A stretch of DNA of 48,241 nt from a virus: IMG/VR virus record IMGVR_UViG_3300028829_003582, positions 1-48,241 of that record. One strand, written 5' to 3'. Positions 10,462-25,982 of the stretch are shown here, in pieces; position 1 is the first letter of the stretch, and each line of letters opens with the position of its first letter. The position numbers and the translations under genes are program-made. Below the pieces are notes generated by a model. It was not told where the DNA came from. It saw nothing but the letters and a program-made list of their open reading frames with translations, and searched no databases.

Positions 10462-10465
10462 CATA

Positions 10466-10911: not shown

Positions 10912-11132
10912 CTCACATTAAGCGAGACCCAAAACTCAACGGGCGCCTGCCTGCAGGCGACATGACCAAGCTGGAGGCCATAGCGACCCAGCTGCTGGCG
11001 GCCCGTACTGCCCAACCAATCGAAGACCCGCTGCACGACTCATCATGGAGTCGAGCGTGTGACGCGGTGGCCGACGCCCACGAGTTGCTCAAGGCATTGG
11101 CAGAACACAACAACCAAGGAGAACAGCCATGA
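10908..11132 (+). CDS. Early hypothetical protein (74 aa)
   Basis: Starts at ATG 10908 with AGGAG SD and is stop-start coupled on both sides (ATGA at 10908 and 11129). Small, mostly helical, acidic toward the end (ADAHELLKALAEHNN). No motif recognised. Confidence 0.6.
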   Translation: MTHIKRDPKLNGRLPAGDMTKLEAIATQLLAARTAQPIEDPLHDSSWSRACDAVADAHELLKALAEHNNQGEQP

Positions 11133-11986
11133 AATTCGGACAGACGCTGCCAGCAAAAACAATCGCACAACTCGGACGCGTACCGGAGTACCCGGAGAAT
11201 CGACAGCACCTGCAGGTTCGTGGGTGGAGGGGGCGCAGCGAGGCGCTGGCATTCCCGCCCGACTCGGTCAACGGCCAGAGAATCCGCCGTGCCTCATCAT
11301 TCAACGACATGCTGTGCAGGATGACCGAGTGGGAGTCCTCACGGGCAGGGAACACTATGGTATATGTCGATCGAGAGGCGTCGGACGGGCCGGACATCGT
11401 AGGGTACTCATACAACGAGCCGGTGGTGCTGTACTGGCGAGGCACCACCCCGCAAACTGATCTGGCAGTCATCACCACACACGATTTCAGCGCCACGACC
11501 CGCCGCCACACCAACGAGATCTTGTATGCGGTCAGGGAGCGCTTGATGACGGGGGCCAACGACATCGTGTTCACCAACCACAACGCAGCGACGCAGGACC
11601 CGCCACAGGGGGACTTGGGCAAGGTCTGCGGGTATTGGCCGAAGCGGTTTGGCAACCAGCAGGTACCTAACATTCTGCGGGTGCCGTTGGCCCTGAGCAC
11701 CAACAACATGGTCGACCAGATCCCCGAGCTATGGGAGCTGGCGCGACTGGAGCTGACACAGGCTCAACGGGCACGGGAGTACTTCCCGCTGCGCTTGGAG
11801 TGGTACCAGCGCCACGTAACCACCCTATATGTCCTGTCCTATTGGTTCGGGGTGCCGGTGCCGGCGGTCATGCCATACCAGATGCTGGACCATGATGAGC
11901 AGGCGAAACTGTTGGCACGGGCAGTGAAGCTGCGACTGCAGGGCATCATCAGCGGCGACACCCTGGCCGCCCTGCAGAACCTATAA
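11129..11986 (+). CDS. Hypothetical protein upstream of the MoxR module (285 aa)
   Basis: ATG at 11129 with a GGAG SD, coupled to the preceding gene. Soluble, alternating beta and helical segments, no signal or membrane segment. Local strings such as YVDREASDGPDIVGYSYN and the aromatic-rich YVLSYWFGVPVPAVMPY are distinctive but not recognised. It is followed 25 bases later by another unknown gene and then the AAA+ ATPase gene, so it may belong to that functional unit. Function unknown. Confidence 0.65.
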   Translation: MKFGQTLPAKTIAQLGRVPEYPENRQHLQVRGWRGRSEALAFPPDSVNGQRIRRASSFNDMLCRMTEWESSRAGNTMVYVDREASDGPDIVGYSYNEPVVLYWRGTTPQTDLAVITTHDFSATTRRHTNEILYAVRERLMTGANDIVFTNHNAATQDPPQGDLGKVCGYWPKRFGNQQVPNILRVPLALSTNNMVDQIPELWELARLELTQAQRAREYFPLRLEWYQRHVTTLYVLSYWFGVPVPAVMPYQMLDHDEQAKLLARAVKLRLQGIISGDTLAALQNL

Positions 11987-12011
11987 CAACGCAAGACATT
12001 GGAGACTTACC

Positions 12012-12641
12012 ATGAGCTGGAACATACCAGATAAAATCGTCGGCATGCTGCAGCATGTCGAGTTTACAGTCGACCCGCACACTCTCGGTGATCGGGAGGC
12101 GAAGAACCTCCAGCGCTGGGCTGATAGCGGCGTCATCACGGCACGGGCGACCCGCACATCATTGCTTGCACGAGCCGTGCGAGTCGCCGAAGGTCTGCCG
12201 GTGGTGCGTGTCCTGTATGGCATGGGATCGTGCCGAATAATGCCCGGGGGGGCGGCGGTTGACGAGTATTCGCTTTGCATTGAAGTCTACACGGGCAACG
12301 ACCCCCATGCGGTGGAGCTTGTCGTTGAGCTGGTCAAGCAGCAGTACGTGGCACTGCAGATACGCAAGCCAGCACCCCCAGACGCAGGCGACATGTCGAC
12401 TGGGGGGGCGCGCCAGTGTCCACACCACGAGTGGCTGGCCAACCGGTTACAGCAAGGGATTGTGTCGCTGGCCATACCGAATAAGCATGTGTTCCTGACG
12501 CTCCCATACATGGAGCGGAAGGCGTTTATCAAGTGGGCGAAGGAAACATTAAAGCTACCGCCCCGGGCAGAGGATGCCCAACGACTTGACCAGATGTTCT
12601 TTATCAACATGCACCGTGACGAAGCGGTGCGCCTGTTCTAA
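12012..12641 (+). CDS. Hypothetical protein upstream of the MoxR module (209 aa)
   Basis: ATG 12012 with SD TTGGAGACT, which is exactly complementary to nine bases of the proposed small RNA at about 18237-18357. N-terminal half helical with basic residues (RATRTSLLARAVRVAE), a His/Cys pair (CPHHEW) near residue 137, and a helical end. No known family. It sits between an unknown protein and the AAA+ ATPase gene. Confidence 0.65.
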   Translation: MSWNIPDKIVGMLQHVEFTVDPHTLGDREAKNLQRWADSGVITARATRTSLLARAVRVAEGLPVVRVLYGMGSCRIMPGGAAVDEYSLCIEVYTGNDPHAVELVVELVKQQYVALQIRKPAPPDAGDMSTGGARQCPHHEWLANRLQQGIVSLAIPNKHVFLTLPYMERKAFIKWAKETLKLPPRAEDAQRLDQMFFINMHRDEAVRLF

Positions 12642-12692
12642 CTGCAACACAACCACCAATGACAGGGGCACAGACCCCACTGGAGAACTACC

Positions 12693-13694
12693 ATGCGTTA
12701 TCAATCAGCTGTGCAGATTATTAAATCCACCCTCGAGATGAACCCGCAGCAGGCGATCTACCTGAGTGGGGCGCCCGGCGTGGCGAAAACGTCAATGGCA
12801 TTTGACGTGGCCAAACAGTTCGGCCTGCCCGAGGACCGGGTCCTGTTGTTCCGCCCCTCACTGCGTGACCCGGTGGACCTGATGGGAGTACCATCAGTAC
12901 ACAACAACATGACCCACTGGAACCCACCGGCGGAGCTGATGCAGTTCGCTGAAGGCTCAGGGCCGGGCATGATTATCTGGGATGAGCTGCCGCAGGCGGT
13001 GACCCAGATGCAGAACGCAGCAGCAGGCTGCCTGCTGGACTGGCTGCTCGGGGACTTGCACATCGACAAGCAGGTGATGCAGATCGCCACGGGTAACCGC
13101 ACCAAGGACAAGGCTGGGGCCAACCGAGTGGTGTCGCAGGTGGGCAACCGAGTGAAGCACCTCGAAGTGGAAGCACATCTCGACGACTGGTGCAGCTGGG
13201 CATTCAGTGCGGGCATCGACCCACTGCTGATTGCCTTTATCCGTCTGCGCCCTGACCTGCTGCACGACTTCGATCCCAGCCGACTGAGCAACCCGACTCC
13301 CCGGTCATGGGAGATGGTCAGTCGCAGCTGCAACCCCCACCTGCCGGTGGACCTGTTCATGATGGACGTGCAAGGCCTTGTCGGTGAGGGGGCAGCGGCT
13401 GAGTACGTGGCCTTCCGAGATCTGGCAGCCAAGATGCCCAACATCGACGGCATCATGATGAAGCCGGACACGGCTGAGATCCCGTCCGATCCGGGCGTTA
13501 AGTACGCCGTGTGTGCAGCACTGGCGAACCGCACCACCAAGGATAACTTCGACCGGGTCATGAAATACCTTGAGCGCATGCCAACCGAGTTCGCAACCAT
13601 GACTATCAAGGACTGCATGACCCGGGATTCCAGCGTGACCAGCTGTGCAGCGTTCACAAAATGGGCAGTAGACAACCACCATGTTTTTATCTGA
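12693..13694 (+). CDS. MoxR-like AAA+ ATPase
   Basis: 333 residues; ATG 12693 with a CTGGAGA SD. Walker A is GAPGVAKTS (about residues 26-34), Walker B MIIWDELPQ (around 94-102), and a sensor-1-like IATGNRTKD follows. This spacing and the short N-terminus are those of MoxR/CobS-type AAA+ ATPases, which remodel client proteins together with VWA-domain partners. A DUF3150-like protein and a VWA-metallopeptidase protein follow on the same strand, as expected for a cognate set. The client in this phage is unknown. Confidence 0.85.
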   Translation: MRYQSAVQIIKSTLEMNPQQAIYLSGAPGVAKTSMAFDVAKQFGLPEDRVLLFRPSLRDPVDLMGVPSVHNNMTHWNPPAELMQFAEGSGPGMIIWDELPQAVTQMQNAAAGCLLDWLLGDLHIDKQVMQIATGNRTKDKAGANRVVSQVGNRVKHLEVEAHLDDWCSWAFSAGIDPLLIAFIRLRPDLLHDFDPSRLSNPTPRSWEMVSRSCNPHLPVDLFMMDVQGLVGEGAAAEYVAFRDLAAKMPNIDGIMMKPDTAEIPSDPGVKYAVCAALANRTTKDNFDRVMKYLERMPTEFATMTIKDCMTRDSSVTSCAAFTKWAVDNHHVFI

Positions 13695-13702
13695 GGTGGG
13701 GC

Positions 13703-13900
13703 ATGAACAAGTGGCTGGTCTGGTATATCAGCACCAAACACGAGCCGGTATACCTTGAGTGGCTGGAACTGTGGACAGCGGGCGAACTACCGCTGTCTCG
13801 CAGCACAGACGAACCCGGCGCGGTGTATGAGCGCGCCCTGCATGACTGGGTGAACGAGCACCACCCACACATCATCGTTGCATGGAGGATGAGCCAATGA
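13703..13900 (+). CDS. Small protein with terminal HPxxxVxWRM motif (65 aa)
   Basis: ATG 13703 with GAGGTGGGG SD, eight bases after the ATPase stop; ends in ATGA overlap with the next gene. The C-terminal HHPHIIVAWRM resembles the ends of two other tiny proteins at 16208 (HPDIWVEWRL) and 16294 (HHPAVVVEWRLF), suggesting a small paralogous family within this operon. Tryptophan-rich, soluble; no known function. Confidence 0.6.
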   Translation: MNKWLVWYISTKHEPVYLEWLELWTAGELPLSRSTDEPGAVYERALHDWVNEHHPHIIVAWRMSQ

Positions 13901-14172
13901 GCAGGCAACGCTTCAACAACATGACCCGCAAATGGCTGGCCGCAGCCAATAAGTTCAGGGAGATGTCGCCGCTGGCGCAGAGTGTGTTGGTACACCCTGG
14001 TGCTACCGACGACGACCTCTTGCGAGTGGCGCAGATCCAGCGCCGGCTGGCAATAGAGCTGGCCGGCGTGCGCAAGAAGCTCAACGACTATTACCGCCGG
14101 GACCGCAACGTCACCGATCCCATGGCACGCCGATACATCGAGCAAATCAATAAGACCGACCTGTTCGGCTGA
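13897..14172 (+). CDS. Small basic protein in the MoxR module (91 aa)
   Basis: ATG 13897 overlaps the previous stop (ATGA) and has GGAGG eight bases upstream; an earlier in-frame ATG at 13882 would overlap that SD. Helical, basic, no recognised motif (MSRQRFNNMTRKW…). It lies between the ATPase and the DUF3150-like gene, so it may be an accessory of the module. Confidence 0.6.
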   Translation: MSRQRFNNMTRKWLAAANKFREMSPLAQSVLVHPGATDDDLLRVAQIQRRLAIELAGVRKKLNDYYRRDRNVTDPMARRYIEQINKTDLFG

Positions 14173-14190
14173 GTAAATTGGAGCACTACC

Positions 14191-15048
14191 ATGAGCAATC
14201 TATCTGACAAGGCCATGCTGGTTAAACTGAAGCGTGGCATGTTCGACCCGAACGTAATGGACCGGACGATCACCGAGAACGTGGAGCACCAGACCGGCGT
14301 GAAGAATGGCGGGCGCTACAAGAAGCGCTTGCTCGCTGAGTCTGCCATGTTCAAGCGGGTAACCGAGGCATGGTCTGCCCTGTATACCTACCACCAGCAG
14401 CATACCCTGCCATGGACGGACAACGGGCCACGACTGCTGCCGTCCTGCATGTACCTTGAGTACACCGAGGCCATGCGTAACCTGCGAGGCGAGGCTGACA
14501 AACGCCTCAAGGTGTTGGCTGATAACTGGCTCCGTGAGATCCAGCACGACAGCGCCCGGCTCGGGATCATGTACAACCCCGAGGACTACCCGAGCGACAT
14601 AGCATCCCGGTTCTACCACGACATTCAGTTCCTGCCGGTACCCAACACGGGGGACTTCAGGGTACAGATCGACGATGCTGACCGCATGAGTCTGGAGCGG
14701 GCCATTGCTGAGGCTGAGGCCAACATCACCAACCACCTGATCACCGAGCTGATGGAGCCACTGCAGCGCATGGCAGCCAAGCTGGCCGTGCCTGCTGACC
14801 AGAAAGGTGGGGTGTTCCGCAACACCCTGATCGAGAACGTGGTGGAGACAGCCGAGCGGCTGAAGAAACTGAACGTGAACAACGACCCGGCCATGTCTTC
14901 GGTACTGGATCAGGTGGTGGGTGTTGCTGCCCAGTACCACGGCAAGGAGGACATGCTGCGAGGCGACACCCAAGCACGGCAGCAGGCTGCGACTGAAGCG
15001 CAGACCACAATCGACAACATCATGGACATCTTTGGAGGTGCACTGTGA
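14191..15048 (+). CDS. DUF3150-like protein of the MoxR/VWA module
   Basis: 285 residues from ATG 14191 with a TTGGAG SD. Mostly helical, with a central string …RLGIMYNPEDYPSDI… and then a PVPNTGDFRV segment that I associate with DUF3150, a family encoded between MoxR ATPases and VWA-like proteins in bacteria and phages. Its stop overlaps the start of the VWA gene (GTGA), which indicates coupled synthesis. It may bridge or assemble the ATPase and VWA subunits; that role is inferred. Confidence 0.7.
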   Translation: MSNLSDKAMLVKLKRGMFDPNVMDRTITENVEHQTGVKNGGRYKKRLLAESAMFKRVTEAWSALYTYHQQHTLPWTDNGPRLLPSCMYLEYTEAMRNLRGEADKRLKVLADNWLREIQHDSARLGIMYNPEDYPSDIASRFYHDIQFLPVPNTGDFRVQIDDADRMSLERAIAEAEANITNHLITELMEPLQRMAAKLAVPADQKGGVFRNTLIENVVETAERLKKLNVNNDPAMSSVLDQVVGVAAQYHGKEDMLRGDTQARQQAATEAQTTIDNIMDIFGGAL

Positions 15049-16208
15049 ATAGCGTAACCCCAAGCGCACACATCGAGGCGCTGTATCAGAAGGCACGTAC
15101 CCTGCTGGTGCTGGACCACCCTTTCTTTGCCAGTATCGTACTGCGCAAGCCACTGACGTGGACCACTGACATCCCGACAGCGGCCATGTCCTGCAAGACA
15201 GGCAACATCTACATCAACCCGGAGTGGGTGGAGGAGCAGAAGCTGACCGCCAAGAACATGGTCTTCTTGCTGGCCCATGAGTGCATGCACTACATGCTGC
15301 TGCACGGTGCCCGACAGGGCAGCCGCAAGGCCAAGGCGTGGAACATCGCAGCCGACAAGGTGATCAACGACACGCTCATTGACTGCAACGTGGGTGAGTT
15401 CATTGACGGCGGCGTGACCATGCCCGGTGCCCGAGACATGCGAGCTGAGGACCTGTACGACGATACCAGTGATGATGGTGACGGCGGTGAAGGTGAGGGT
15501 GAGGGTGAGGGCGGCATCGGTGGCTGCGGCGATGACCTGCTGGATGAGCAGATGACCGAGGGTGAGCAAGCCGCAGCCGAGGCACAGGCCAAGGTCGACA
15601 TGACCCAAGCCAAGCAGGCAGCCAAGATGCAAGGCAAGCTGCCCGGTGCACTGGAGCGCATGGTCGATGAGATCATCAACGTGCCAACCCCGTGGCACGA
15701 TATCCTTGAGCGGTTCATGGTGAGCTTCCGCAGGGATGACCTGAGCTGGTCACGACCGAACCGCCGGCACATCGCATCGGATATCTACATCCCCGGTACC
15801 AGCTACGTACCTGAGATGGGGCCGGTGGTGCTGGCAATCGACACGTCGGGGTCAATCGGACAGGCCGAGCTGGACCACTTCACCGGCCACGTTAACCGCA
15901 TCATTGAGGACTGCCGACCTGAGGTGGTGCATGTGCTGTACTGCGACACCGCCGTGGCAGGGCATGACATCGTGACGCTGGATGACCTGCCGTACAAGGC
16001 TACCATGAAAGGCGGCGGTGGCACCGACCTGCGGGAGATCTTCAACCATATCGACCATGAGGGCATCGAGCCTGACGTACTGGTGGTACTGACCGACATG
16101 TACACACCCTTCCCGAGCGAGGCACCGGGGTACATCACGGTGTGGCTGAGCACCAGTAGCGTGGACACTGCACCGTTTGGCGAGGTGATCCACTACGAGG
16201 TGGCGTGA
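15045..16208 (+). CDS. Metallopeptidase-VWA fusion protein (DUF2201-like)
   Basis: 387 residues from GTG 15045. A zincin motif HECMH (residues 78-82) lies in an N-terminal domain of the putative metallopeptidase kind, followed by an acidic Gly/Glu/Asp-rich linker (about 139-160). The C-terminal von Willebrand factor A domain has an apparently intact metal-ion-dependent adhesion site: DTSGS (266-270), GGTD with Thr327-Asp328, and Asp351 in VVLTD. VWA partners of MoxR ATPases work as substrate adaptors; the added peptidase motif suggests protein processing. Final gene of the AAA+ module. Confidence 0.82.
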   Translation: MNSVTPSAHIEALYQKARTLLVLDHPFFASIVLRKPLTWTTDIPTAAMSCKTGNIYINPEWVEEQKLTAKNMVFLLAHECMHYMLLHGARQGSRKAKAWNIAADKVINDTLIDCNVGEFIDGGVTMPGARDMRAEDLYDDTSDDGDGGEGEGEGEGGIGGCGDDLLDEQMTEGEQAAAEAQAKVDMTQAKQAAKMQGKLPGALERMVDEIINVPTPWHDILERFMVSFRRDDLSWSRPNRRHIASDIYIPGTSYVPEMGPVVLAIDTSGSIGQAELDHFTGHVNRIIEDCRPEVVHVLYCDTAVAGHDIVTLDDLPYKATMKGGGGTDLREIFNHIDHEGIEPDVLVVLTDMYTPFPSEAPGYITVWLSTSSVDTAPFGEVIHYEVA

Positions 16209-16297
16209 TGGACGACACGTTCGCTAGATCGTACGCCCTATGGAACTGGCGGATGACGCACCCGGATATATGGGTCGAGTGGAGGCTGCGCCAATGA
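16208..16297 (+). CDS. Tiny Trp-rich ORF (29 aa)
   Basis: ATG 16208 overlaps the VWA stop as TGATG, and its TGA overlaps the next ATG. The peptide contains HPDIWVEWRLRQ, similar to the ends of the 13703 and 16294 products. Tight coupling on both sides and the shared motif argue that it is expressed, possibly as a duplicated remnant of the same small family. Confidence 0.45.
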   Translation: MDDTFARSYALWNWRMTHPDIWVEWRLRQ

Positions 16298-16572
16298 CCT
16301 TCACAACGCGGCGTGACTTCGGGGCGTGGTCGCTGGAAAGGCACCCCAATCTGTGGTCCGACTGGGCATCCCACCCTGATACCTGGGTGGGTGACGGGTT
16401 CTTTGGGTGGTGCAAGGTGCACCACCCCGCAGTCGTAGTGGAGTGGCGCCTGTTCCAATCCACAACACAACACAACAGAAAACTGGAGACTGACTATGAG
16501 TACACAAGACATTGTTGCTTCGCTGGTCGCAGCCAGACTGGCGGGGGAGAATGGGGTCGTGATCAAGACTGA
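16294..16572 (+). CDS. Small Trp-rich protein with HHPxxxVEWRL motif (92 aa)
   Basis: ATG 16294, coupled to the 29-residue ORF. Contains repeated HP-W strings (RHPNLWSDWASHPDTWV) and KVHHPAVVVEWRLFQ, paralogous in appearance to 13703 and 16208. The last 26 codons read across the SD and start of the next gene (overlap 77 nt), so the end may be a run-on. No family recognised. Confidence 0.5.
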   Translation: MTFTTRRDFGAWSLERHPNLWSDWASHPDTWVGDGFFGWCKVHHPAVVVEWRLFQSTTQHNRKLETDYEYTRHCCFAGRSQTGGGEWGRDQD

Positions 16573-16882
16573 CCACCCGATCCCCATCGAGCAGGTGCTG
16601 GAGCTGGTCGAACCAATCGAGTACAGCGGGGCGATAGCCGACTTCTTCGACGACGGAATAGCTACTGTCACGGATGAGGATTACAAACCCTTCCGTGAAC
16701 GCTGGGCACCGGACACGGTTCCCACACTGTCCCCTGACATGGCGTTTGTGTGTGAGCTGGGGATAGGTGGTATAGATGCGGGTATCTGGGTCAGTGTCGT
16801 GAACCTGAACCGCAACGCCCCCGTCCGTAACCTCCCTCACGTAGTGGTAGAAGCGCCGGAGGCTGGCCATGTACCAGTATGA
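16496..16882 (+). CDS. Hypothetical protein (128 aa)
   Basis: ATG 16496 with SD CTGGAGACT. Acidic soluble protein beginning MSTQDIVASLVAARL; alternating beta and helical segments, no motif recognised. The SD shares eight bases with the complement of the proposed small RNA loop. Overlaps the preceding and following genes slightly. Confidence 0.6.
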   Translation: MSTQDIVASLVAARLAGENGVVIKTDHPIPIEQVLELVEPIEYSGAIADFFDDGIATVTDEDYKPFRERWAPDTVPTLSPDMAFVCELGIGGIDAGIWVSVVNLNRNAPVRNLPHVVVEAPEAGHVPV

Positions 16883-17117
16883 CGACGAGGAATCCGTACC
16901 ACTGGTGGTGTGTACGAGGCACGTCTTGCAGCTGGTGCATACCGTGACCATGGATGAGGACGCCGATCAGGCAACACTCGACATGGCGAACAGTCTACTC
17001 AGCGGCATCCTGCCCGAGCTGCGATATCCAACAACGACTTTGCATGAGGACCTTGAGCCTATGTTCAAGGCATTGAGTGATCGTTATGAACGAAGCAACC
17101 CAGAGCCAAGTGATTGA
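16869..17117 (+). CDS. Hypothetical acidic protein (82 aa)
   Basis: ATG 16869 overlaps the previous gene by 14 bases, with GGAGG upstream. Acidic, helical (MYQYDDEESVPLV…). The next gene begins within its last 32 bases. No recognised domain. Confidence 0.5.
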   Translation: MYQYDDEESVPLVVCTRHVLQLVHTVTMDEDADQATLDMANSLLSGILPELRYPTTTLHEDLEPMFKALSDRYERSNPEPSD

Positions 17118-17391
17118 GGAGCTGTGGGAATACTGGCGGCTGGCCATTGACGAGACCAAGTCAGTGGTGTCGCTGGTCGAGACCGGCAAGCCGGTCCCCC
17201 TCGACTCTGCCCGGCGCAGAGTCAACCTGCTCAACAGCTACTGGACGAAGTACCTGCTGCACTCAATAAGGGCCGAGTGCCAGCACACCAAGCTACCACA
17301 CGAGAGTGCCAAGGACTGGCTGCGAACCAAAGTCGTGATCCTCCGCATGGCGGGGGTCAAAATAAAAATACCTGAGAGGCTACTGGAATGA
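17086..17391 (+). CDS. Hypothetical helical protein (101 aa)
   Basis: ATG 17086 is chosen over GTG 17077; GAGTGA lies just upstream. Predominantly helical with a basic second half (NSYWTKYLLHSIRAEC…). No motif recognised. It is the last gene before a strong hairpin at 17418-17441, so it probably ends a transcriptional or processing unit. Confidence 0.55.
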   Translation: MNEATQSQVIEELWEYWRLAIDETKSVVSLVETGKPVPLDSARRRVNLLNSYWTKYLLHSIRAECQHTKLPHESAKDWLRTKVVILRMAGVKIKIPERLLE

Positions 17392-17417
17392 AGGAGTGCT
17401 GCTGAGGGAAAAAGACC

Positions 17418-17441
17418 CCCCGATCGGTGACCCGATCGGGG
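17418..17441. terminator. Strong 10-bp hairpin between gene groups
   Basis: CCCCGATCGG / CCGATCGGGG with a TGAC loop, 26 bases after a stop. There is no T-run downstream on the plus strand; on the minus strand the stem is followed within four bases by TTTTT. It could be a processing/stability hairpin for the rightward message or a terminator against antisense transcription. Confidence 0.5.
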
Positions 17442-17529
17442 TGGAGAAGTATGTCAAACCAAGGGGCCTCAACTATAGGCCGCCATGTGCAAATGCGCAA
17501 CGATACAAATGACAAAAAGGACCACAACC

Positions 17530-17904
17530 ATGATCACTTTCGCAGACGACTACAGCAAATATGTGTTCAGCAAAACCCTCCAGCACATGGCAAATGCTGA
17601 GGGCTTCAACCAGCACAGCAAGGACGGTCGCCGCACCTTCCTTGATTACGCCACGCAGTTCCTGATGATGCCACATCAGGATGTGACCCTGATGATCTCC
17701 CGTGCTGATGTCAGTGAGAACGGCATAGCCAAGGAGATCAGCTTCCGATGGGACGCCATCGACACAGAGCGCGTGGACAAACTGATCCACGACCCCGAGT
17801 GGTACTACCTCAACCTGAGCAACTACAAAGGTGGCCACCCATTGGTAGGTGCCTTGATCAACCACGGCACCTCCGATAAGCCAAACTGGAGTAGTCACAC
17901 TTGA
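17530..17904 (+). CDS. Hypothetical protein (124 aa)
   Basis: ATG 17530 with AAGGA SD eight bases upstream; a GTG/ATG-less extension to 17485 has no SD. Soluble, mixed alpha/beta, rich in aromatic residues near the end (DPEWYYLNLSNYKGGHP). First gene after the 17418 hairpin; a CTATAG-type -10 without a good -35 lies at 17473-17478. No family recognised. Confidence 0.62.
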   Translation: MITFADDYSKYVFSKTLQHMANAEGFNQHSKDGRRTFLDYATQFLMMPHQDVTLMISRADVSENGIAKEISFRWDAIDTERVDKLIHDPEWYYLNLSNYKGGHPLVGALINHGTSDKPNWSSHT

Positions 17905-17937
17905 GAAATTTCATCGAAGTATCAAAGGAGCTTGAAT

Positions 17938-18213
17938 ATGAAACGAAGTGAGCTGTACAAGCTAGTCAAGAACATCGACGCCTGCGAGGATGCCATCCGC
18001 GATGTGGTTAAGGCAAGGTCCCAAGGCCACACAGTAGGCACCGTCGTACTGGTAGCGCCTGAGCAACCCGGAGCCGAGCCAGTGCTCCGCATCGACGACC
18101 CCGACCTGCGTGATGTGGCGGTCGACGCCATCATATCGGCTGTAGCAAAACGCCTTGAGAATTTGAATGAGCAACTGATGTCAGTGTGCCCCTCAATTGA
18201 CTTGAACTGTTAA
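17938..18213 (+). CDS. Hypothetical helical protein (91 aa)
   Basis: ATG 17938 with AAAGGAG SD. Amphipathic helices at both ends and a short central beta part (GTVVLVAPEQPG). Its last codons are overlapped by the promoter of the proposed small RNA (18202-18230). No family recognised. Confidence 0.6.
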   Translation: MKRSELYKLVKNIDACEDAIRDVVKARSQGHTVGTVVLVAPEQPGAEPVLRIDDPDLRDVAVDAIISAVAKRLENLNEQLMSVCPSIDLNC

Positions 18214-18230
18214 GCGGTTAACACTATAGT
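18202..18230 (+). promoter_or_regulatory. Promoter with embedded TTAACA palindrome, drives proposed small RNA
   Basis: TTGAAC (18202-18207), 17-base spacer, TATAGT (18225-18230). The spacer contains TGTTAA-GCGG-TTAACA (18208-18223), an inverted repeat of the half-site seen in the origin tract and in the terS promoter, in the right place for a repressor operator. Confidence 0.6.
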
Positions 18231-18236
18231 TGTGTG

Positions 18237-18357
18237 GCGGGCATCGGGAGGTGCCCAGTCCTGAGCGCATTGACTCAGTGCGTTGAGGACTTAGCTCAGC
18301 TAGGTAGTAGTCTCCAACTACGCAGATCTTGGCCCCCCGTCTCAGGGGGGATTTTTT
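18237..18357 (+). ncRNA. Candidate phage small RNA (~120 nt)
   Basis: Non-coding stretch bounded by its own promoter (18202-18230) and an intrinsic terminator (18333-18357). By-eye pairing gives: stem GGGCA/TGCCC (18239-18243 with 18252-18256) with a GGGAGG-containing loop; an outer stem AGTCCT/AGGACT (18257-18262 with 18286-18291) around CGCA/TGCG; a hairpin GTAGT-CTCCA-ACTAC (18307-18321); and the terminator. The CTCCA loop region (18309-18317) is complementary to the SD of several genes of this phage. A role as a translational regulator is inference. Confidence 0.55.
18333..18357 (+). terminator. Intrinsic terminator
   Basis: Six-C / six-G stem (18333-18338 with 18345-18350), loop GTCTCA, followed by A and six T. 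The clearest rho-independent terminator in the window. Confidence 0.85.
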
Positions 18358-18417
18358 CTATCGCTAAGTGCACAGCACCTTGGTGTGCTCAGTCATGGGA
18401 AAACGCGGAGGCTAACC

Positions 18418-18591
18418 ATGCACGACAAAACAATAATCAAGCAGCAGCAGAAGACTATCACTGCACAAGCAGCTGAGATTCAAGCCATGCGTGAGTGCAT
18501 ACTTACAGCGCATCGGTACCTGCAGAAGGGCAAGAGTAACCTGGCGCAGGCACAACTTAGAGCGCTCCTCAGAGAGCGCAATTTACTGTAG
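18418..18591 (+). CDS. Small helical protein (57 aa)
   Basis: ATG 18418 with GCGGAGG SD. Glutamine-rich N-terminal helix (IIKQQQKTITAQAAEIQ) followed by a basic helix; likely a short coiled coil. It begins just after the small-RNA terminator and a small hairpin (about 18370-18388). No function recognised. Confidence 0.55.
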   Translation: MHDKTIIKQQQKTITAQAAEIQAMRECILTAHRYLQKGKSNLAQAQLRALLRERNLL

Positions 18592-18608
18592 AAACTGGAG
18601 GCCACACC

Positions 18609-19385
18609 ATGCCTATCATGAGAACGCTTTACATAACCCCCTACGAATTTTTTGAAGACCCCGCCGACACATACGAAGGTCACCTGCTGGTGGACTCCGA
18701 CAACCACCGCAATGACAGCGTACGGGATGACATCACATCCTTGGTTGGCGACGCCATTGACAAGGCCATGCAGCGGCGGGCACCCGCACTGTTCGAGCAG
18801 GGTTACAGCCACGATGATGAGTACCTGCCCGTGGGTAACAACGGCAGCGATCGAGAGAACCCATACTGGTTCGACGCCGGTAACATGGAGGAAGTAGTCG
18901 GGAAGTACCAAGAGTTTGAGCGGTACATCCCACTGGAAGATCGGCTGTTCATCTACGAGGGGTCCTTGTGCAGTGACTGCGCACGAGGCAGGGTCGATGT
19001 CTACTACGTCATGCCATTGCAAGAAGCCCTTGGCAACTTGGTAGCGCGCAAGCCGGGCGACACCAAACCCAAGCGCCTTACCCTCAAGCGGCGCCTCATG
19101 CTGGACACAATGTGCGAGGCGATAACGACCGAGTACGAGGCGTACATCAACGGCGACATGTGGACATTCGACCTGCACGAGCATGCAGTGGACGACGAGA
19201 GTTGGTACCAGACCGACCCGATTGATTCCTGCTGTGGGTTCATCGGCTACGACTACGAGGACAACGGTATTCTGGAGCATGTCAGCCCGGAAGATCGCAT
19301 CGACATGCGAGTGGTGCGTGGATACAACTCGGGACCATTGGAGCTGGTCGACTGCCCTGACTGGCTGCAAGGCGCACCAGTATGA
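18609..19385 (+). CDS. Hypothetical acidic protein (258 aa)
   Basis: ATG 18609 with CTGGAGG SD. Acidic, rich in Asp/Tyr, with several Cys (CSDCARG, SCCGF) that could bind metal. No membrane segment. Its stop overlaps the next start (ATGA). No family recognised. Confidence 0.62.
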   Translation: MPIMRTLYITPYEFFEDPADTYEGHLLVDSDNHRNDSVRDDITSLVGDAIDKAMQRRAPALFEQGYSHDDEYLPVGNNGSDRENPYWFDAGNMEEVVGKYQEFERYIPLEDRLFIYEGSLCSDCARGRVDVYYVMPLQEALGNLVARKPGDTKPKRLTLKRRLMLDTMCEAITTEYEAYINGDMWTFDLHEHAVDDESWYQTDPIDSCCGFIGYDYEDNGILEHVSPEDRIDMRVVRGYNSGPLELVDCPDWLQGAPV

Positions 19386-19708
19386 ACCCTCCCCGCCAGC
19401 ACCAGCAATACACTGAGCAGGAGATCGCCATCCTGCGCCGTTGGGCCGGGGTCAAGACCGCAGCCGAGATCGCTACGATGCTCGGACGCAGCGTTCGCAG
19501 TGTCGGATACAAGCTGCGTGACCTTGGTCTGAGCGGGCAGCTTTATGGCGAACACCACTGGTCTGCCAAGTACGCGGACCTGCTTATTGCCATGGTCCTG
19601 ACTCTATATGATGCGGGCTTCACCCCCGCCGAAATATACAACACGCTGTCCCGTGCCGAGCTGGACCACAAGGCGATCAAGAACATAATCCATAGGAGAA
19701 AAGCATGA
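19382..19708 (+). CDS. HTH DNA-binding protein
   Basis: 108 residues, ATG overlapping the previous stop. YTEQEIAILRRWAG followed by TAAEIATMLGRSVRSVGYKLR gives a Myb/homeodomain-like HTH common in phage regulators and in HNH-associated DNA-binding domains; a second helical part (TPAEIYNTLSRAELDHKAI) may form another HTH. Style resembles the two-HTH protein at 4632. It is a possible reader of the TTAACA or CTGTCCAG sites, but nothing in the sequence links them directly. Confidence 0.68.
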   Translation: MNPPRQHQQYTEQEIAILRRWAGVKTAAEIATMLGRSVRSVGYKLRDLGLSGQLYGEHHWSAKYADLLIAMVLTLYDAGFTPAEIYNTLSRAELDHKAIKNIIHRRKA

Positions 19709-20127
19709 ACGAGAAGCACATGCACCCAAGCATAAAGATCTGCGGCAGCAGCACTTCATGCCCGTACTGCAACCAGACGTGGGATACCAATGACCCACAC
19801 CCACCTGAGTGCACGGCTGAGGCACGGCTACTGACCAACCCTGTGGGTGGGTACGAATCGCTGGAACGTGTGTTGGTCAGGGCATATGAGCAGGCAGCCA
19901 TTGGCAAAGGGTCAGTGCGCCACGCACAGAACACACCCTTCAACGAGCAACCAATGCAGAAGATCATCGACCTGCATGGCGTAGGGTTTGCTACCGGACA
20001 GGCGACCAAGAAACTGCAGGAGTCCCGCCGCCTGTCCCGTGACGCAGCCATCGCTGAAATGCTGGGAGCCATTGTGTATATCAGTGGTGCCATCATTGCT
20101 ATTGAGCGTGGGGTGCCGCATGACTGA
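19705..20127 (+). CDS. Hypothetical protein with N-terminal zinc-finger-like Cys pair
   Basis: 140 residues, ATG overlapping the HTH gene stop, AGGAG SD. The N-terminus has CPYCNQTW and a further His/Cys (HPPEC), as in a zinc ribbon; the rest is helical with a conserved-looking string (LERVLVRAYEQAAIGKGSVRHA) that I associate with phage proteins of unknown role. Overlaps the next start by eight bases. Confidence 0.6.
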   Translation: MNEKHMHPSIKICGSSTSCPYCNQTWDTNDPHPPECTAEARLLTNPVGGYESLERVLVRAYEQAAIGKGSVRHAQNTPFNEQPMQKIIDLHGVGFATGQATKKLQESRRLSRDAAIAEMLGAIVYISGAIIAIERGVPHD

Positions 20128-20368
20128 GTTGTACAAGGTAGTCCCGACACCTTATCTGGATGAGGAGGTCGGCTACTACGTCAAGGCAGGCGAGGAGGAT
20201 GTTAAACAATGGGCGCACGAAAATGGTTTCGTCATGGTCCCGGTGGCCAACCGAAAGAACCTGAAGGTGGCGGTGGGTGCGATCAGCGACGCGCTGGGCG
20301 ACCACCCTGGTGGGTCTGGCTCCACCCCCGATGGTGGCGGCTCCGACATTCATGGGCCCACGCAGTAA
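20120..20368 (+). CDS. Hypothetical protein (82 aa) overlapping the next gene
   Basis: ATG 20120, near the end of the preceding gene. Short alpha/beta protein with a disordered Gly/Ser tail (DHPGGSGSTPDGGGSD). The tail is the region shared with the next gene in another frame (160-base overlap), so its low complexity may reflect the overprint. No family recognised. Confidence 0.5.
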   Translation: MTELYKVVPTPYLDEEVGYYVKAGEEDVKQWAHENGFVMVPVANRKNLKVAVGAISDALGDHPGGSGSTPDGGGSDIHGPTQ

Positions 20369-20604
20369 GGCGTTGGCGCAGCAACCGCGGCTTTCCTTTT
20401 GAGGGCGACAGGTTTGGGTGGGAGCTGGACTTGAGGATGTATGCGATGCGCTGCGGTGTGTCGCCGGGCAGCTGGACAACGGTTCCCCCTGTCGCAGGGT
20501 GGTACCCCCACCACAACATGCCTGATGACCTCAAGGTCTTTATCGTAACGCTACGGATGACGGACCCGCCGCGTTACAAACTAATCACAAAATTCTGGGA
20601 GTAA
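20209..20604 (+). CDS. Hypothetical protein (131 aa), overprinted start
   Basis: ATG 20209 with AGGAGG ten bases upstream, inside the preceding gene. The first 50 residues are Gly/Pro/Trp/Arg-rich (PPWWVWLHPRWWRLRHSW), the rest an ordinary soluble sequence ending KLITKFWE. An internal start near 20437 is possible but its SD is too close. It ends two bases before the DNA polymerase ATG. Confidence 0.5.
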   Translation: MGARKWFRHGPGGQPKEPEGGGGCDQRRAGRPPWWVWLHPRWWRLRHSWAHAVRRWRSNRGFPFEGDRFGWELDLRMYAMRCGVSPGSWTTVPPVAGWYPHHNMPDDLKVFIVTLRMTDPPRYKLITKFWE

Positions 20605-20606
20605 CC

Positions 20607-22541
20607 ATGGATACCATCACACTGGATTGGGAAACCTACTACGACAGGGAGTACTCCCTGTCGAAGATGACGACGCAGGCCTACATACTGGACCCTCGCT
20701 TCGAGGAGATCGGTATCGGCATCAAGTGGAACAACGAGCCAACCCGTTGGGAATCCTTCAAGGATCGGGATGGGTACCGCCGGCTGTTCGAGGAGTACGA
20801 GTGGGATAAGTCAGCGGTGCTGGCACACAACACCATGTTCGATGGTGCGATCCTGTCCTTCCACTATGGCATCGCCCCCAAGCTGTGGCTCGACACACTC
20901 AGCATGGCCCGCCCCTACTTCGGCACCACTGTGGGCGGATCACTGGCCCGGGTGGCTCAGATCCTGGGCATAGGGGAGAAGGGTACTGAGGTGGTGCAGG
21001 CGCTGGGCAAGAACCGTGCTGCGTTCAGTCCGCAGGAGCTGGCTCAGTATGGGCGGTACTGTGTCAACGACGTGGAACTATGCCGCAAGATATTCAACAT
21101 CCTGATGCAGGGTGGGCGGGCAGCTGACGGCACACCACTGCCACCCTTCCCGAAGTCGGAGCTGATGCTGGTCGACCAGACCATCCGCATGTACACCGAG
21201 CCGAGTATCGAACTGGACAAGGCGTTGCTGGTTGATCACCTCAAGTCCACCAAGCAGCGCAACCAAGAAGCACTGCGCTCAGTCATTACAGTGGCGGCGA
21301 AGAACAACCCCACTGTAGCCAACATGATTGTGAAGGAACGCATGAAGGGTGAGAAGGGCAAGTCGATCAGGCAGATGCTGATGTCCAACCCCTTCTTTGC
21401 TGAACTGCTGTACGAGGCTGGCGTTGAGCCACCGACCAAGATCAGCCCGACCACCGGTAAGACCACCCTCGCGTTCGCCAAGTCAGACAAGGCGTTCACC
21501 GAGCTGCTGGAGCATGACAGTGATGCAGTACGTGCGCTGGTCGAGGCCCGGCTGAAGGTGAAGTCCACTATCGAAGAGACAAGGACTCAGCGGTTCATTG
21601 ACATGGCGGACCACGGCCCCATGCCGGTGCCTCTGGCCTACTGCGGTGCCTACCAGACGTGGCGCTGGTCAGGTCAGGACAAGCTGAACATGCAGAACCT
21701 GCCCCGTGGTGGTGTACTGCGCAAGGCAATGCGGGCACGAGAAGGTGAGAAGCTGGTTGTGGTTGACTCATCCAACATCGAGCTGCGCGTGAACCACACA
21801 CTGGCTGGGCAGATGGATTCGGTCGAGGCATTCCGTGATGGTCGTGACCTGTACTGTGAGTTCGCATCCATCCTGTTCGGTCGCACTGTCACCAAGGCAG
21901 ACAAGGACGAGCGTATGCTGGGCAAGCTGGCCCACCTGTCGCTGGGGTATGGCTGTGGTTGGGAGAAGTTCAAGCACATCTGCCGCATGAACGGGGTGAA
22001 GCTGGATGACAGCGAGGCGGAGCGCATCGTGAAGTTGTGGCGCAACACCTACTCCAAGATCCCTGCCTTGTGGCGCAAGTGTGACCGTGCCCTGACCGAT
22101 ATGATGATGGGTGCCAAGACTCGGGTCGATGACAAAGGCCTGATCTGCACCACCCATGAGCGACTGATCACCCCACCCTGCCACTTCATCCGGTTCCCTG
22201 AGTTGGAGAAGGATGACCAAGGCGAGTGGACATACAAGAACCGCAACGCCCGCAAGAAAACCTACGGCGCCAACATCGTGGAGAACGTGTGCCAGCACCT
22301 GGCCCGCAACATCATCGCTGACCAGTGGTTGAGGGCCAGCGCATGGTGCGCCAAGAATGCACCGGGGTTCCGTGTCCTCCTGCAGGTACACGATGAGATC
22401 GTGTTGTCTGGCCCTGAAGAACAGGCCGAGGACGTACTGGCAGCGGTGATCAAGATCATGAAGACCCCGCCGGTATGGTGGCCAGAGATCCCGCTTGATG
22501 CTGAGGGTGATGCGGCCTACTGCTACGGTGACGCCAAGTGA
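20607..22541 (+). CDS. DNA polymerase, family A, with 3'-5' exonuclease
   Basis: 644 residues. Exonuclease motifs: TLDWE with Asp7/Glu9, AHNTMFDGA (Exo II), YGRYCVNDVELC (Exo III). Polymerase motifs: A, VVVDSSNIELR with Asp387; B, R436xxxK440…Y448G449; C, VHDE with His595-Asp596-Glu597. No 5'-nuclease domain, as in T7-type replicative polymerases. The position 440 Lys and 448 Tyr that contact the incoming nucleotide are present. First gene of the replication/recombination block. Motif B has Leu where many family members have Phe two residues before the Gly-Tyr. Confidence 0.95.
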   Translation: MDTITLDWETYYDREYSLSKMTTQAYILDPRFEEIGIGIKWNNEPTRWESFKDRDGYRRLFEEYEWDKSAVLAHNTMFDGAILSFHYGIAPKLWLDTLSMARPYFGTTVGGSLARVAQILGIGEKGTEVVQALGKNRAAFSPQELAQYGRYCVNDVELCRKIFNILMQGGRAADGTPLPPFPKSELMLVDQTIRMYTEPSIELDKALLVDHLKSTKQRNQEALRSVITVAAKNNPTVANMIVKERMKGEKGKSIRQMLMSNPFFAELLYEAGVEPPTKISPTTGKTTLAFAKSDKAFTELLEHDSDAVRALVEARLKVKSTIEETRTQRFIDMADHGPMPVPLAYCGAYQTWRWSGQDKLNMQNLPRGGVLRKAMRAREGEKLVVVDSSNIELRVNHTLAGQMDSVEAFRDGRDLYCEFASILFGRTVTKADKDERMLGKLAHLSLGYGCGWEKFKHICRMNGVKLDDSEAERIVKLWRNTYSKIPALWRKCDRALTDMMMGAKTRVDDKGLICTTHERLITPPCHFIRFPELEKDDQGEWTYKNRNARKKTYGANIVENVCQHLARNIIADQWLRASAWCAKNAPGFRVLLQVHDEIVLSGPEEQAEDVLAAVIKIMKTPPVWWPEIPLDAEGDAAYCYGDAK

Positions 22542-22744
22542 AGTGGAGCTGCGGAGTACACAACTGCGGCGACGGTAACTGTGTGCACAAACTGTTGACT
22601 GAATCGTGCCCCGTGTGTGGGCACCGGCTGGTCGAAGTCACAACAACGGGGTTCATATTCTGCAGCAACCATGCGGCGCTGTGTGAGTATGAACGCCCAC
22701 CAGAGAAGGAGGCATCATGCCTGCATGGTCATACTCAGCACTGA
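22538..22744 (+). CDS. Small zinc-ribbon-like protein (68 aa)
   Basis: GTG 22538 overlapping the polymerase stop as GTGA. Two or three Cys pairs (CGVHNC, CPVCGH, and a later Cys/His) suggest a zinc-binding fold; about seven Cys in 68 residues. Overlaps the nuclease gene downstream by 28 bases. Perhaps a replication accessory, from context only. Confidence 0.55.
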   Translation: MKWSCGVHNCGDGNCVHKLLTESCPVCGHRLVEVTTTGFIFCSNHAALCEYERPPEKEASCLHGHTQH

Positions 22745-23376
22745 GTTCATTTGAAACCTGCCCTCGTCGGCACTTCCTCACCCGGGTATCCAAGGCAGTT
22801 AAGGAACCTGAATCGGAGGCGCTGCGCTGGGGGAACTACGTACACAAAGCGTTGGAGGATCGCCTGAAAGACAGCAAGCCGCTGCCTACCACACTCAGTA
22901 CTCACGAGGCGTTCTGTCAGAAGGTCGAGTCGATTGAGGATGCCAAGCTGCTGGTCGAGTACGAGGCGGCCATCACCAAGGAGTTCCAGCCAACGGGTTG
23001 GTGGGATCGCAACGTGTGGTGCCGGTCCAAGTGGGACTTGGGCATCCTGAAGGGTAACGCCCTTGGGATCTACGACTGGAAGACAGGCAAGCGCAAGCTG
23101 GACATCGACCAGATGGAACTGTTCGCACTGAGTGCATTCATCCATATCCCTGACGTTGAAGTCGTGACATCCGGGTACGTGTGGCTGAAGGACAAGAAGA
23201 TCGACCGCGAGAAGTTCCGCCGAGACCAAGCCCCGGAGATCTGGAGCCGGTGGCTGCCGAGGGTTGAGCGGTTTGATCAGGCGTTTGCCCAGAACAAGTG
23301 GCCGGCCAAGCCATCGGGGCTGTGCCGCAAGTGGTGCCCGGTAGGCAAGCACAACTGCGAGCACTGCGGGGAGTGA
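22717..23376 (+). CDS. Cas4-like PD-(D/E)XK nuclease
   Basis: 219 residues. N-terminal SYSALSSFETCPRRHF with Cys15, His43 in GNYVHKALE, Asp107 (KWDLG), the catalytic pair Asp120-x-Lys122 in IYDWKTG, a QMELFA motif (Gln132), and a C-terminal cluster Cys203/207/214/217. These are the RecB/Cas4-type nuclease residues with a probable Fe-S cluster. No CRISPR array is near; like other phage copies it more likely serves recombination or end processing, between polymerase and helicase genes. Confidence 0.88.
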   Translation: MPAWSYSALSSFETCPRRHFLTRVSKAVKEPESEALRWGNYVHKALEDRLKDSKPLPTTLSTHEAFCQKVESIEDAKLLVEYEAAITKEFQPTGWWDRNVWCRSKWDLGILKGNALGIYDWKTGKRKLDIDQMELFALSAFIHIPDVEVVTSGYVWLKDKKIDREKFRRDQAPEIWSRWLPRVERFDQAFAQNKWPAKPSGLCRKWCPVGKHNCEHCGE

Positions 23377-23380
23377 GGCG

Positions 23381-23593
23381 ATGAACCGTAACCCCCTGCT
23401 GCGAGAGCACCACTGGAACAGCACGCTGCCACCCGTGGACGTGGATGTGTTGGTGGCGCTGAACGATGGCACGGTGTGGAAAGTACACCGCAAGACCTGG
23501 CTGCGCAGCTACAAGGACGACCCCGAGTACCGGTGCGCCACGACCGGCCACGCCATTGATGTAGAACAAGTGATTGGGTGGCGATATGTATAA
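23381..23593 (+). CDS. Hypothetical protein (70 aa)
   Basis: ATG 23381, four bases after the nuclease stop, GGAG in the preceding codons. Small beta-rich soluble protein (PPVDVDVLVALNDGTVWKV), ending GWRYV; resembles short phage 'DUF551'-like proteins in layout, but I am not sure. Overlaps the next gene by eight bases. Confidence 0.55.
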   Translation: MNRNPLLREHHWNSTLPPVDVDVLVALNDGTVWKVHRKTWLRSYKDDPEYRCATTGHAIDVEQVIGWRYV

Positions 23594-23882
23594 CCCACAG
23601 GCACAAGCATCATTCAATCTGGCAGAGCTGCTGGATCTGATGGTGACCATCGAGGTGGGTGTGCTGTTGCGCCCCATCGAGAACCCGCACACCGTTGCCC
23701 GGCAGATCAGTCGAGCACTGCTGGATACATGGCCCATCCGGGCTGTATCAAACCGAGAAACCCTTGTCGCGTTGTCAACCATGAGGCATGCGTACAACGG
23801 CGTGAAGGCAGGGACCAAACATCTGGAGACTGAATATGAATACTGCACACCTCAGGAATATGTCCGACGCCGAGTTCGTTAG
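23586..23882 (+). CDS. Hypothetical helical protein (98 aa)
   Basis: ATG 23586 overlapping the previous stop. Helical, mixed charge, no motif. Its last 47 bases overlap the start region of the next ORF, and the final residues (LETEYEY…) read through that gene's SD. Confidence 0.5.
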   Translation: MYNPQAQASFNLAELLDLMVTIEVGVLLRPIENPHTVARQISRALLDTWPIRAVSNRETLVALSTMRHAYNGVKAGTKHLETEYEYCTPQEYVRRRVR

Positions 23883-24009
23883 GGTCATCGGCGCTGACTT
23901 GGACAACAACGCGGACCCAGTGCTGGTTGAGGCCATCGACAGGTTGGACAACCACGTCCGCAACTGCCCACAGATCGAACCGGAGAACCCCAATGGCTCA
24001 GACACCTGA
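23836..24009 (+). CDS. Small acidic protein (57 aa)
   Basis: ATG 23836 with SD CTGGAGACT seven bases upstream. Acidic, helical peptide (MNTAHLRNMSD…) ending NGSDT, overlapping the VRR-NUC start by 17 bases. Leader nearly identical to that of 16496 (CTGGAGACTGA-TATGA). No function recognised. Confidence 0.55.
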   Translation: MNTAHLRNMSDAEFVRVIGADLDNNADPVLVEAIDRLDNHVRNCPQIEPENPNGSDT

Positions 24010-24352
24010 AGGCCGCGTCAAAGATGCGGTAAAGAAACTGCTGAAGTCCCGAGGCATCTGGTATTACATGCCAGTGCAGAATGGTATGGGCGTGGTTGGT
24101 ATCCCTGATATCATCGCCTGCTGGGATGGATTGTTCCTCGCCATTGAGACCAAGGCACCACTCAAAAACCCTACCACCCTGGCCCAGCGTTGGAACAAGG
24201 CCACCCCCAACCAGCAGCGCAGGATCGAAGAGATCAACGCAGCAGGCGGGCTGGCTTTGGTTGTCGACGACGTTGAGCAGGTACGTGCCATACTGGACCA
24301 CCCCATGATCGCTGCCGTTGCACGAGCATCACTGGGCGGGCAGCCACAGTAA
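23993..24352 (+). CDS. VRR-NUC domain nuclease
   Basis: 119 residues from ATG 23993 with GGAG SD. The nuclease signature is clear: GIPDI with Asp39, CWDGLFLAIETKAP with Glu52 and Lys54, and TPNQQRRI with Gln74. VRR-NUC proteins of phages are stand-alone PD-(D/E)XK enzymes, often beside SNF2-type helicases, and are thought to resolve or trim branched DNA. Directly precedes the helicase gene. Confidence 0.9.
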   Translation: MAQTPEGRVKDAVKKLLKSRGIWYYMPVQNGMGVVGIPDIIACWDGLFLAIETKAPLKNPTTLAQRWNKATPNQQRRIEEINAAGGLALVVDDVEQVRAILDHPMIAAVARASLGGQPQ

Positions 24353-24365
24353 CAGGAGGTTTATC

Positions 24366-25982
24366 GTGATCGTAGTCCCGCAGAAGAAGGCGCTCATCCT
24401 GAAGCTGCGCGACCCGAGCAAGGTTGTATCGGTACTACCAAAGTCCAAGGTGGTGAACTACAAGGGACAGCAGCTGCTTGCTGTCCCTCACCGCCGGGAT
24501 GAGGTTAAGTTCCTGCGCAACATTGGTCTGGATGCGCCCAGTCCCGCTGAGTATTACTACCAGTGGTCAGGGATGCGTGACCCATTCCACACCCAGCGCA
24601 AGACCGTAGGGTTCCTGACACTATACAGCCGGGCGTACTGCCTCAACGGCATGGGTACCGGCAAGACCTTGAGTGCGTTGTGGGCAGCGGATTACCTGCG
24701 CAAGCAAAAGCTGATCAAGAAGATCCTCGTGGTGGCCCCGCTATCCACGCTGGAACGGACATGGGCCGACGAGGTATGGCAGCACTTCCCCCATCTGGAG
24801 GCGGTGGTACTGCACGGCTCCCGGGATCGGCGGCTGAAGTTACTGGCGTCCGACGCTGACATCTACATCGTGAACCACCACGGTCTTGAGATCTTGGAGA
24901 AGGATCTGGCCAAGCGGGCGGACATTGACCTCATCATCATTGATGAGCTGGCTGTGTACCGTAACGCTCAGACCAAGATGTGGAAGGCAGCCAACCGGAT
25001 CTGCAACCAGCAACACCCACGTAGTGTGTGGGGTTTGACGGGCACACCGATACCGAACTCACCAACCGATGCGTTCGGGCAGATCAGGCTGGTTACCCCG
25101 AACCAAGTGCCCAAGTATTTCAACCGCTTCAGGGACATGCTGATGCGACAGGTCAACCAGTTCATCTGGGTACCACGCAACGACGCCGTGGATCAGGTGC
25201 ACTCCCTGATGCAGCCGAGCATTCGGTTCTCACTCGATGAGTGTACTGACTTGCCCCCGCAGGTTGTGGTGCAGCGTCAGGCTGAGCTGAGCCCCGAGCA
25301 GAAGCGGGCGTACAAGGACATGTTCGACAAGCTCAAGGCCGAGCACGATGGCGGCGAGATCATGGCCGTCAACGAGGCGGTCAAGGCAGGCAAGCTGCTG
25401 CAGATCTGCTGCGGTGTGGTGTACGACGTGAACGGCGCCGACGTGGTGCTGCCCATGCCCAACCGACTGGCGATCGTGGATGAGTTGATCGAGGAGTCAG
25501 AGGGCAAGGTCATCATATTCGTACCGTTCACCGGGGCGCTCAATGCGGTAGCCGAACATGTGTCCAAGACCCTGAGCGTTACACCCGAGCACAAGTCGCA
25601 GCTGTCAGCGGCCCGCATGAAAGGCGAGCGGGTAATCAACGAGACCACAGCTGTCGTCGACGGGTCCGTATCCAAGAACAAGCGAGACCAGATCTTCGGG
25701 GACTTCCAGAAAGCGCAGTACCCCCGAGTGCTGGTGGCCCAGCCTGCGACCATGAGCCACGGCCTGACCCTGACTGCAGGCACGACCATCATCTGGTTCG
25801 CACCGACACACAGCAACGAGACATTCGAGCAGGCCAATGCCCGAGTACGGCGGCCGGGGCAGACACGATCCACCGTGATCGCCTGCATATCCGGCTCAGC
25901 TATTGAGGACAAGTGCTACACCCGACTGAAGAACCGCCAGTCAACCCAGGGTGTGTTACTTGATATGTTTAAATCCACTTGA
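24366..25982 (+). CDS. SNF2-family DEAD/DEAH-like helicase
   Basis: 538 residues from GTG 24366 with AGGAGG SD. RecA-like domain 1: Walker A NGMGTGKT (about 94-101), motif II IIIDELA (Asp193-Glu194), LTGTP. Domain 2: KVIIFVPFTG, MSHGLTLT, and the arginine-finger region ARVRRPGQTR near the C-terminus. Phage SNF2 proteins of this size translocate on DNA in replication or recombination. Followed by a TTAACA-rich leader. Confidence 0.9.
   Translation: MIVVPQKKALILKLRDPSKVVSVLPKSKVVNYKGQQLLAVPHRRDEVKFLRNIGLDAPSPAEYYYQWSGMRDPFHTQRKTVGFLTLYSRAYCLNGMGTGKTLSALWAADYLRKQKLIKKILVVAPLSTLERTWADEVWQHFPHLEAVVLHGSRDRRLKLLASDADIYIVNHHGLEILEKDLAKRADIDLIIIDELAVYRNAQTKMWKAANRICNQQHPRSVWGLTGTPIPNSPTDAFGQIRLVTPNQVPKYFNRFRDMLMRQVNQFIWVPRNDAVDQVHSLMQPSIRFSLDECTDLPPQVVVQRQAELSPEQKRAYKDMFDKLKAEHDGGEIMAVNEAVKAGKLLQICCGVVYDVNGADVVLPMPNRLAIVDELIEESEGKVIIFVPFTGALNAVAEHVSKTLSVTPEHKSQLSAARMKGERVINETTAVVDGSVSKNKRDQIFGDFQKAQYPRVLVAQPATMSHGLTLTAGTTIIWFAPTHSNETFEQANARVRRPGQTRSTVIACISGSAIEDKCYTRLKNRQSTQGVLLDMFKST

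Follow-up and report, generated by a model that had tools for sequence, protein, structure and literature searches.

A predicted small RNA with an operator-bearing promoter and a candidate anti-Shine-Dalgarno loop in an uncultured phage

The whole 48,241-base IMG/VR virus record IMGVR_UViG_3300028829_003582, from an uncultured phage, was analyzed (hereafter "the window"). At 18202-18358, between two early genes, it contains a promoter with an operator, a folded non-coding stretch of about 120 nt, and a terminator. The best reading of this anatomy is an independently transcribed small RNA (sRNA), which we consider probable from the arrangement of its sequence elements. More tentatively, the locus may encode an operator-controlled, trans-acting phage sRNA whose anti-Shine-Dalgarno (anti-SD) loop silences the phage's own early genes. 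The initial annotation had proposed such an operator-controlled sRNA with anti-SD targeting; the sRNA gene is well supported by the anatomy, whereas the support for targeting is statistical. Least certain is that the RNA truly targets genes of the phage itself, as opposed to host mRNAs or a protein.

Promoter, operator, and predicted fold

The elements of the locus, and the features elsewhere in the window that bear on its control, are as follows.

18202-18230, + strand: sigma-70-type promoter TTGAAC-17-TATAGT (-35 at 18202-18207, -10 at 18225-18230), third-highest weighted score
18208-18223, no strand assigned: operator palindrome TGTTAAGCGGTTAACA, occupying the whole promoter spacer; the window has six exact copies, none of them within a gene
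About 18236-18237, + strand: predicted transcription start, placed from the promoter
18237-18358, + strand: predicted non-coding RNA of about 120 nt (122 nt); fold z -4.9/-4.7, six frames non-coding
18239-18256, + strand: hairpin H1 of the predicted fold, GGGCAUC-GGGA-GGUGCCC
18257-18291, + strand: long hairpin H2 of the predicted fold (AGUCCU...GCGCAUUGACUCAGUGCG...AGGACU)
18292-18302, + strand: short hairpin H3 of the predicted fold
18304-18321, + strand: hairpin H4, GUAGU-AGUCUCCA-ACUAC, whose loop (18309-18316) is the candidate anti-SD element; from the predicted fold and complementarity
18333-18357, + strand: intrinsic terminator CCCCCC-GTCTCA-GGGGGG-A-TTTTTT, from terminator scans
9792-10174, no strand assigned: early control region, in which the operator scan gave four exact matches (9792, 9834, 9876, 10158)
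25979-26013, + strand: second operator-bearing promoter, before gene 26034, with TTGACA at 25979 and operator TGTTAACCTGTTAACA at 25998-26013
19382-19708, + strand: gene for a D5-like (phage T5) transcriptional regulator (phrog_323, E 1.1e-13), just downstream of the RNA

The promoter sequence singled out in the initial annotation is present at 18202-18230 and is the best promoter-like site outside one AT-rich island. Its weighted sigma-70 score ranks third in 48 kb, behind two overlapping matches in that island (10.04-10.08 kb). A plain count of promoter-consensus matches in the window is not above chance (3 observed vs. 6.3 expected). The TGTTAA/TTAACA palindrome described within the spacer is an exact TGTTAA-N4-TTAACA at 18208-18223, within which the upstream gene 17938-18213 ends at TAA (18211-18213). 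With a gap of four or five bases, the window holds six exact sites (9792, 9834, 9876, 10158, 18208, and 25998), all intergenic. Four lie in the control region at 9.66-10.47 kb, the fifth is in the RNA promoter, and the sixth is at the promoter before gene 26034. About 0.003 such palindromes would be expected by chance, as we estimate from base composition with gaps of 2-7. Given an exact, wholly intergenic set against so low an expectation, the RNA gene is probably wired into a phage regulon through the shared operator. The D5-like regulator encoded at 19382-19708 is a candidate for the operator-binding protein, by position only.

Two of the other operator-bearing regions have features of their own. 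At 25979-26013, before gene 26034, a perfect TTGACA is accompanied by two or three TGTTAAC palindromes that overlap one another, making a second operator-controlled promoter. The region 9660-10470 is intergenic between leftward and rightward genes; besides its four operator palindromes, some ten copies of AACTGGACAG/CTGTCCAGTT facing either way surround the AT-rich island, which gives the region the appearance of an early control region or a replication origin.

The stretch 18237-18358 has a negative codon-usage score in all six frames, in contrast to every neighboring short gene, for which the score is positive; the earlier description of about 120 bases without coding character thus holds. 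A coding alternative, ORF 18234-18476, was rejected: its codon score is negative and its GTG lies upstream of the predicted transcription start. A tRNA or tmRNA was likewise rejected: TTAGCTCAGCTAGG resembles a tRNA D-arm, but neither ARAGORN nor Rfam returned a tRNA, and no tmRNA was found.

The minimum free energy of 18237-18358 is -58.6 kcal/mol (z -4.9; z -4.7 in a repeat with 300 shuffles), and the RNA minus its terminator still scores z -4.5 vs. shuffles. In an unaligned sliding-window fold scan, the best window near the RNA ranks 21st of 1606; the RNA is among the more structured stretches of the window, and is not unique. The several self-complementary hairpins noted earlier correspond to four hairpins plus the terminator in the predicted fold. 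The sequence GUAGUAGU at 18304-18311 permits two registers of H4, one with the 8-nt AGUCUCCA loop and one with a 5-nt CUCCA loop, the latter arising once the terminator is blocked. The loop region had been given as 18309-18317; the loop proper is 18309-18316 (8 nt), with A18317 in the stem.

The terminator had been called textbook for its six C, six G, and six T, and no other + strand site in scans of 1-10500, 9000-26000, and 26000-45000 combines six GC pairs with T6. Elsewhere, at 17418-17441, a ten-pair GC-rich hairpin that reads as a minus-strand terminator lies within the rightward operon, and an antisense transcript may end there.

Complementarity of the H4 loop to early ribosome-binding sites

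Four sites are candidate targets of the loop.

11999-12007, + strand: SD TTGGAGACT before gene 12012-12641; match of 9 bases, net -9.1 kcal/mol
16484-16491, + strand: SD TGGAGACT before gene 16496-16882; match of 8 bases, net -6.1 kcal/mol
23824-23831, + strand: SD TGGAGACT before gene 23836-24009; match of 8 bases, net -8.9 kcal/mol
9076-9084, + strand: candidate target AGTTGGAGA of gene 9092-9661; 9 bases vs. UCUCCAACU, net -4.1 kcal/mol

The matches at 11999, 16484, and 23824 bear out the complementarity reported by the initial annotation before 12012 (nine bases) and before 16496 and 23836 (eight bases), and the shorter match of CTCCA to the TGGAG-type SDs of 9092, 12693, 14191, 18609, and 41396 was found as described. 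The nine-base match at 9076 had been overlooked; there the UCUCCAACU/AGTTGGAGA pairing requires partial opening of the H4 stem. The three best predicted accessible interactions all run through the 8-nt H4 loop, and every one of the eight starts that match the 9-base loop segment over at least six bases lies on the early (+) strand. A further copy of TGGAGACT occurs at 41004 (+ strand), away from any called start. Gene duplication as the source of the ribosome-binding site (RBS) shared by 16496 and 23836 was rejected, as their proteins fail to align.

Any CTCC loop matches some SDs, as had been cautioned at the outset: in a random-loop control (NNNCTCCNN), CTCC loops averaged 1.2 starts with at least 7 matching bases per loop, and 0.5% of them hit at least three starts over at least 8 bases. 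When RBSs were compared instead, at least 8 bases of AGTTGGAGACT were present in 4 of 36 in the window vs. 20 of 1101 in relatives without the RNA (p = 0.006), and within the T-GGAG subset in 3 of 15 vs. 4 of 341 (p = 0.002). Accessibility-weighted duplex energies for the best four targets averaged -7.4, vs. -6.0 ± 1.0 for dinucleotide-shuffled RNAs (P = 0.07), and target counts at fixed cut-offs, weighted in the same way, gave P values of 0.05-0.28 against shuffled RNAs. Some other phages, which lack the RNA, also reuse one RBS octamer three to six times (up to 6 of 12), so that the recurrence of TGGAGACT is not unusual in itself. The SD match was spotted post hoc, and the controls gave p of about 0.002-0.006 in two cases and 0.07 in the third. 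Taken on these terms, they are moderate evidence that the match of the H4 loop exceeds that of a generic CUCC loop.

In the most probable of the alternatives, the locus encodes a real, stable phage sRNA with another role (acting on host mRNAs, sequestering a protein, or serving as a structural RNA) and the SD match is a by-product of the CUCC loop. We regard this as possible but somewhat doubtful. The protected ends, the fold z of -4.7, and the operator control do not depend on the SD match, a CUCC loop will in any case encounter many SDs, and the energy-based test is borderline; on the other side are the excess of 8-base matches relative to two controls and the confinement of the best matches to the early strand.

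Related loci and the terminator within the early operon

The sole other copy of the RNA is in a 99.97% identical contig, with zero changes inside the RNA. Alignments of the primase and metallopeptidase led to 160 viral loci, which apart from that contig are distant (primase 25-32%, metallopeptidase 43-54% identity); the helicase and gene 18609, used as single-protein baits, recovered zero relatives among viral contigs. No RNA homologue beyond the 99.97% identical contig was found in ~1.7 Mb of related loci, phages, plasmids, or Rfam, and covariation of the helices is for this reason not measurable. BLASTN of the RNA against phage and plasmid records gave chance matches only, as did Rfam at gathering and relaxed thresholds. 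A single-sequence covariance model run on 52 primase-linked, 26 whole-record, and 77 metallopeptidase-linked viral sources returned, besides the RNA itself, the antisense of the palindromic hairpin and weak matches in two loci (11.7 bits in L031, 9.4 bits in L105). A stronger match (19 bits, in L085) spans the end of an ORF plus its terminator and was judged to be chance, and an exact 18-mer match in an Armatimonadetes MAG was set aside, its flanks being without similarity.

Several relatives have an intrinsic terminator in the equivalent interval, directly after a short ORF, mostly the ORF 3' of the metallopeptidase gene; the metallopeptidase gene that flanks this interval is of the VWA/DUF2201 type. 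Their terminator abuts a coding ORF, without a 120-nt structured RNA and without the operator, and TGTTAA-N4/5-TTAACA was absent from every relative examined. Part of the group thus shares the habit of a mid-operon terminator; special to this phage are the operator-promoter and the structured 120 nt ahead of it. In one relative, Rhizobium phage RHph_TM3_14A, about 400 nt without an annotated gene (10092-10490 of locus L004) follow the metallopeptidase gene, with inverted repeats and a minus-strand stretch resembling part of a tRNA.

The terminator also raises the alternative of a cis element, in which the promoter, a structured leader, and the mid-operon terminator set the level of transcription into the replication genes 18418-25982 by attenuation or antitermination, with no independent RNA function. 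The early genes at 10.5-31.3 kb are co-oriented and the terminator lies inside the early operon, as in the equivalent interval of several relatives. The interval 18350-18418 has no top-scoring promoter; downstream expression therefore probably includes readthrough, which suggests that the terminator is leaky or overridden. Against this alternative, blocking the terminator in folding replaces H3 by a helix of RNA positions 63-68/92-97, and since this 6-bp helix shares only a single base with the terminator, it does not amount to a strong antiterminator; a mutually exclusive antiterminator helix, as expected of an attenuator, was not found in this folding. The relatives' terminators, directly behind coding ORFs and lacking both structured RNA and operator, also argue against it, and we consider it rather unlikely. 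That there is no functional RNA at all, and that an ordinary terminator merely follows the remnant of a decayed gene and a promoter-like site arisen by chance, draws on the single species available for conservation and on promoter-like matches that are not enriched, but is very improbable in view of the exact operator common to five other intergenic sites, the z of -4.7, and the sharp order of promoter to terminator.

Proposed action and relation to known RNAs

From the sequence elements, the non-coding character, the stability of the fold relative to shuffles, and the complementarity with its statistical excess, we infer transcription, the sRNA boundaries, operator occupancy, and repression for the preferred reading, a trans-acting sRNA that silences early genes. 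A phage repressor or activator would bind TGTTAA-N4-TTAACA in the promoter spacer, and the operator would place the RNA in one regulon with the early control region at 9.7-10.4 kb and the promoter at 26.0 kb. Transcription would begin at ~18236 and end at the GC-rich terminator, giving a stable ~120-nt RNA with a buried 5' end, four hairpins, and the terminator. H4 would expose the AGUCUCCA loop to pair with (U)UGGAGACU at the SD of 12012, 16496, and 23836, and more weakly with the SD of 9092 and others, and the loop-SD duplex would block ribosome entry in trans. Still more speculative, and in our view unlikely, is that the RNA is a timer, by which dispersed early genes with a dedicated (U)UGGAGACU RBS are silenced by a repressor-switched RNA at a set stage of infection.

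The closest mechanistic parallel is bacterial. In the alphaproteobacterial alpha-r14/NfeR1 ("cuckoo") sRNAs, anti-SD hairpin loops occlude the RBSs of several mRNAs with about eight paired bases (PMC10746234), and the phage RNA similarly has a candidate anti-SD motif in a hairpin loop, about eight bases able to pair, and several candidate target mRNAs. Unlike those RNAs, which have three hairpins with an identical CCUCCUCCC, the phage RNA has one AGUCUCCA loop, and its terminator loop has only GUCUC; membership in the family was rejected, as the CCUCCUCCC motif is absent and there is no Rfam match.

Among phage RNAs, VpdS of phage VP882 is a trans-acting sRNA reported to affect phage and host mRNA levels (PMC12197685); it belongs to an Hfq-dependent Vibrio system, and the comparison is one of described action. 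P22 sar acts on ant, phi24B 24B_1 on d_ant, and lambda OOP on cII, all repressing phage mRNAs, and sar interferes with translation initiation (PMC12197685). The view that a phage RNA timing its own early genes would be new was therefore too strong. These RNAs nonetheless differ from the candidate: sar and OOP are antisense RNAs with long complementarity and one target each, and 24B_1, a processed RNA of 20 nt, has a single proposed target. Phage lambda PreS, an sRNA between ea10 and ral whose target, host dnaN, is encoded elsewhere (PMC12197685), resembles the RNA proposed here in acting on a distant target, and differs in that its known target is a host gene and not a phage gene. By analogy, the best reading is that the candidate RNA would work like NfeR1/alpha-r14 and be of the same kind as the phage RNAs that repress phage mRNAs, while being a recognizable homologue of none.

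The less usual part would be the silencing of several early genes of the same phage by a single trans-acting RNA through an anti-SD loop; the literature consulted has few phage sRNAs with trans action on more than one gene of their own phage. If the proposed reading is true, early genes would be sorted by a code in their RBSs, consisting of an octamer in SD sites and its complement in the loop of an operator-controlled RNA, and legible directly from genomes.
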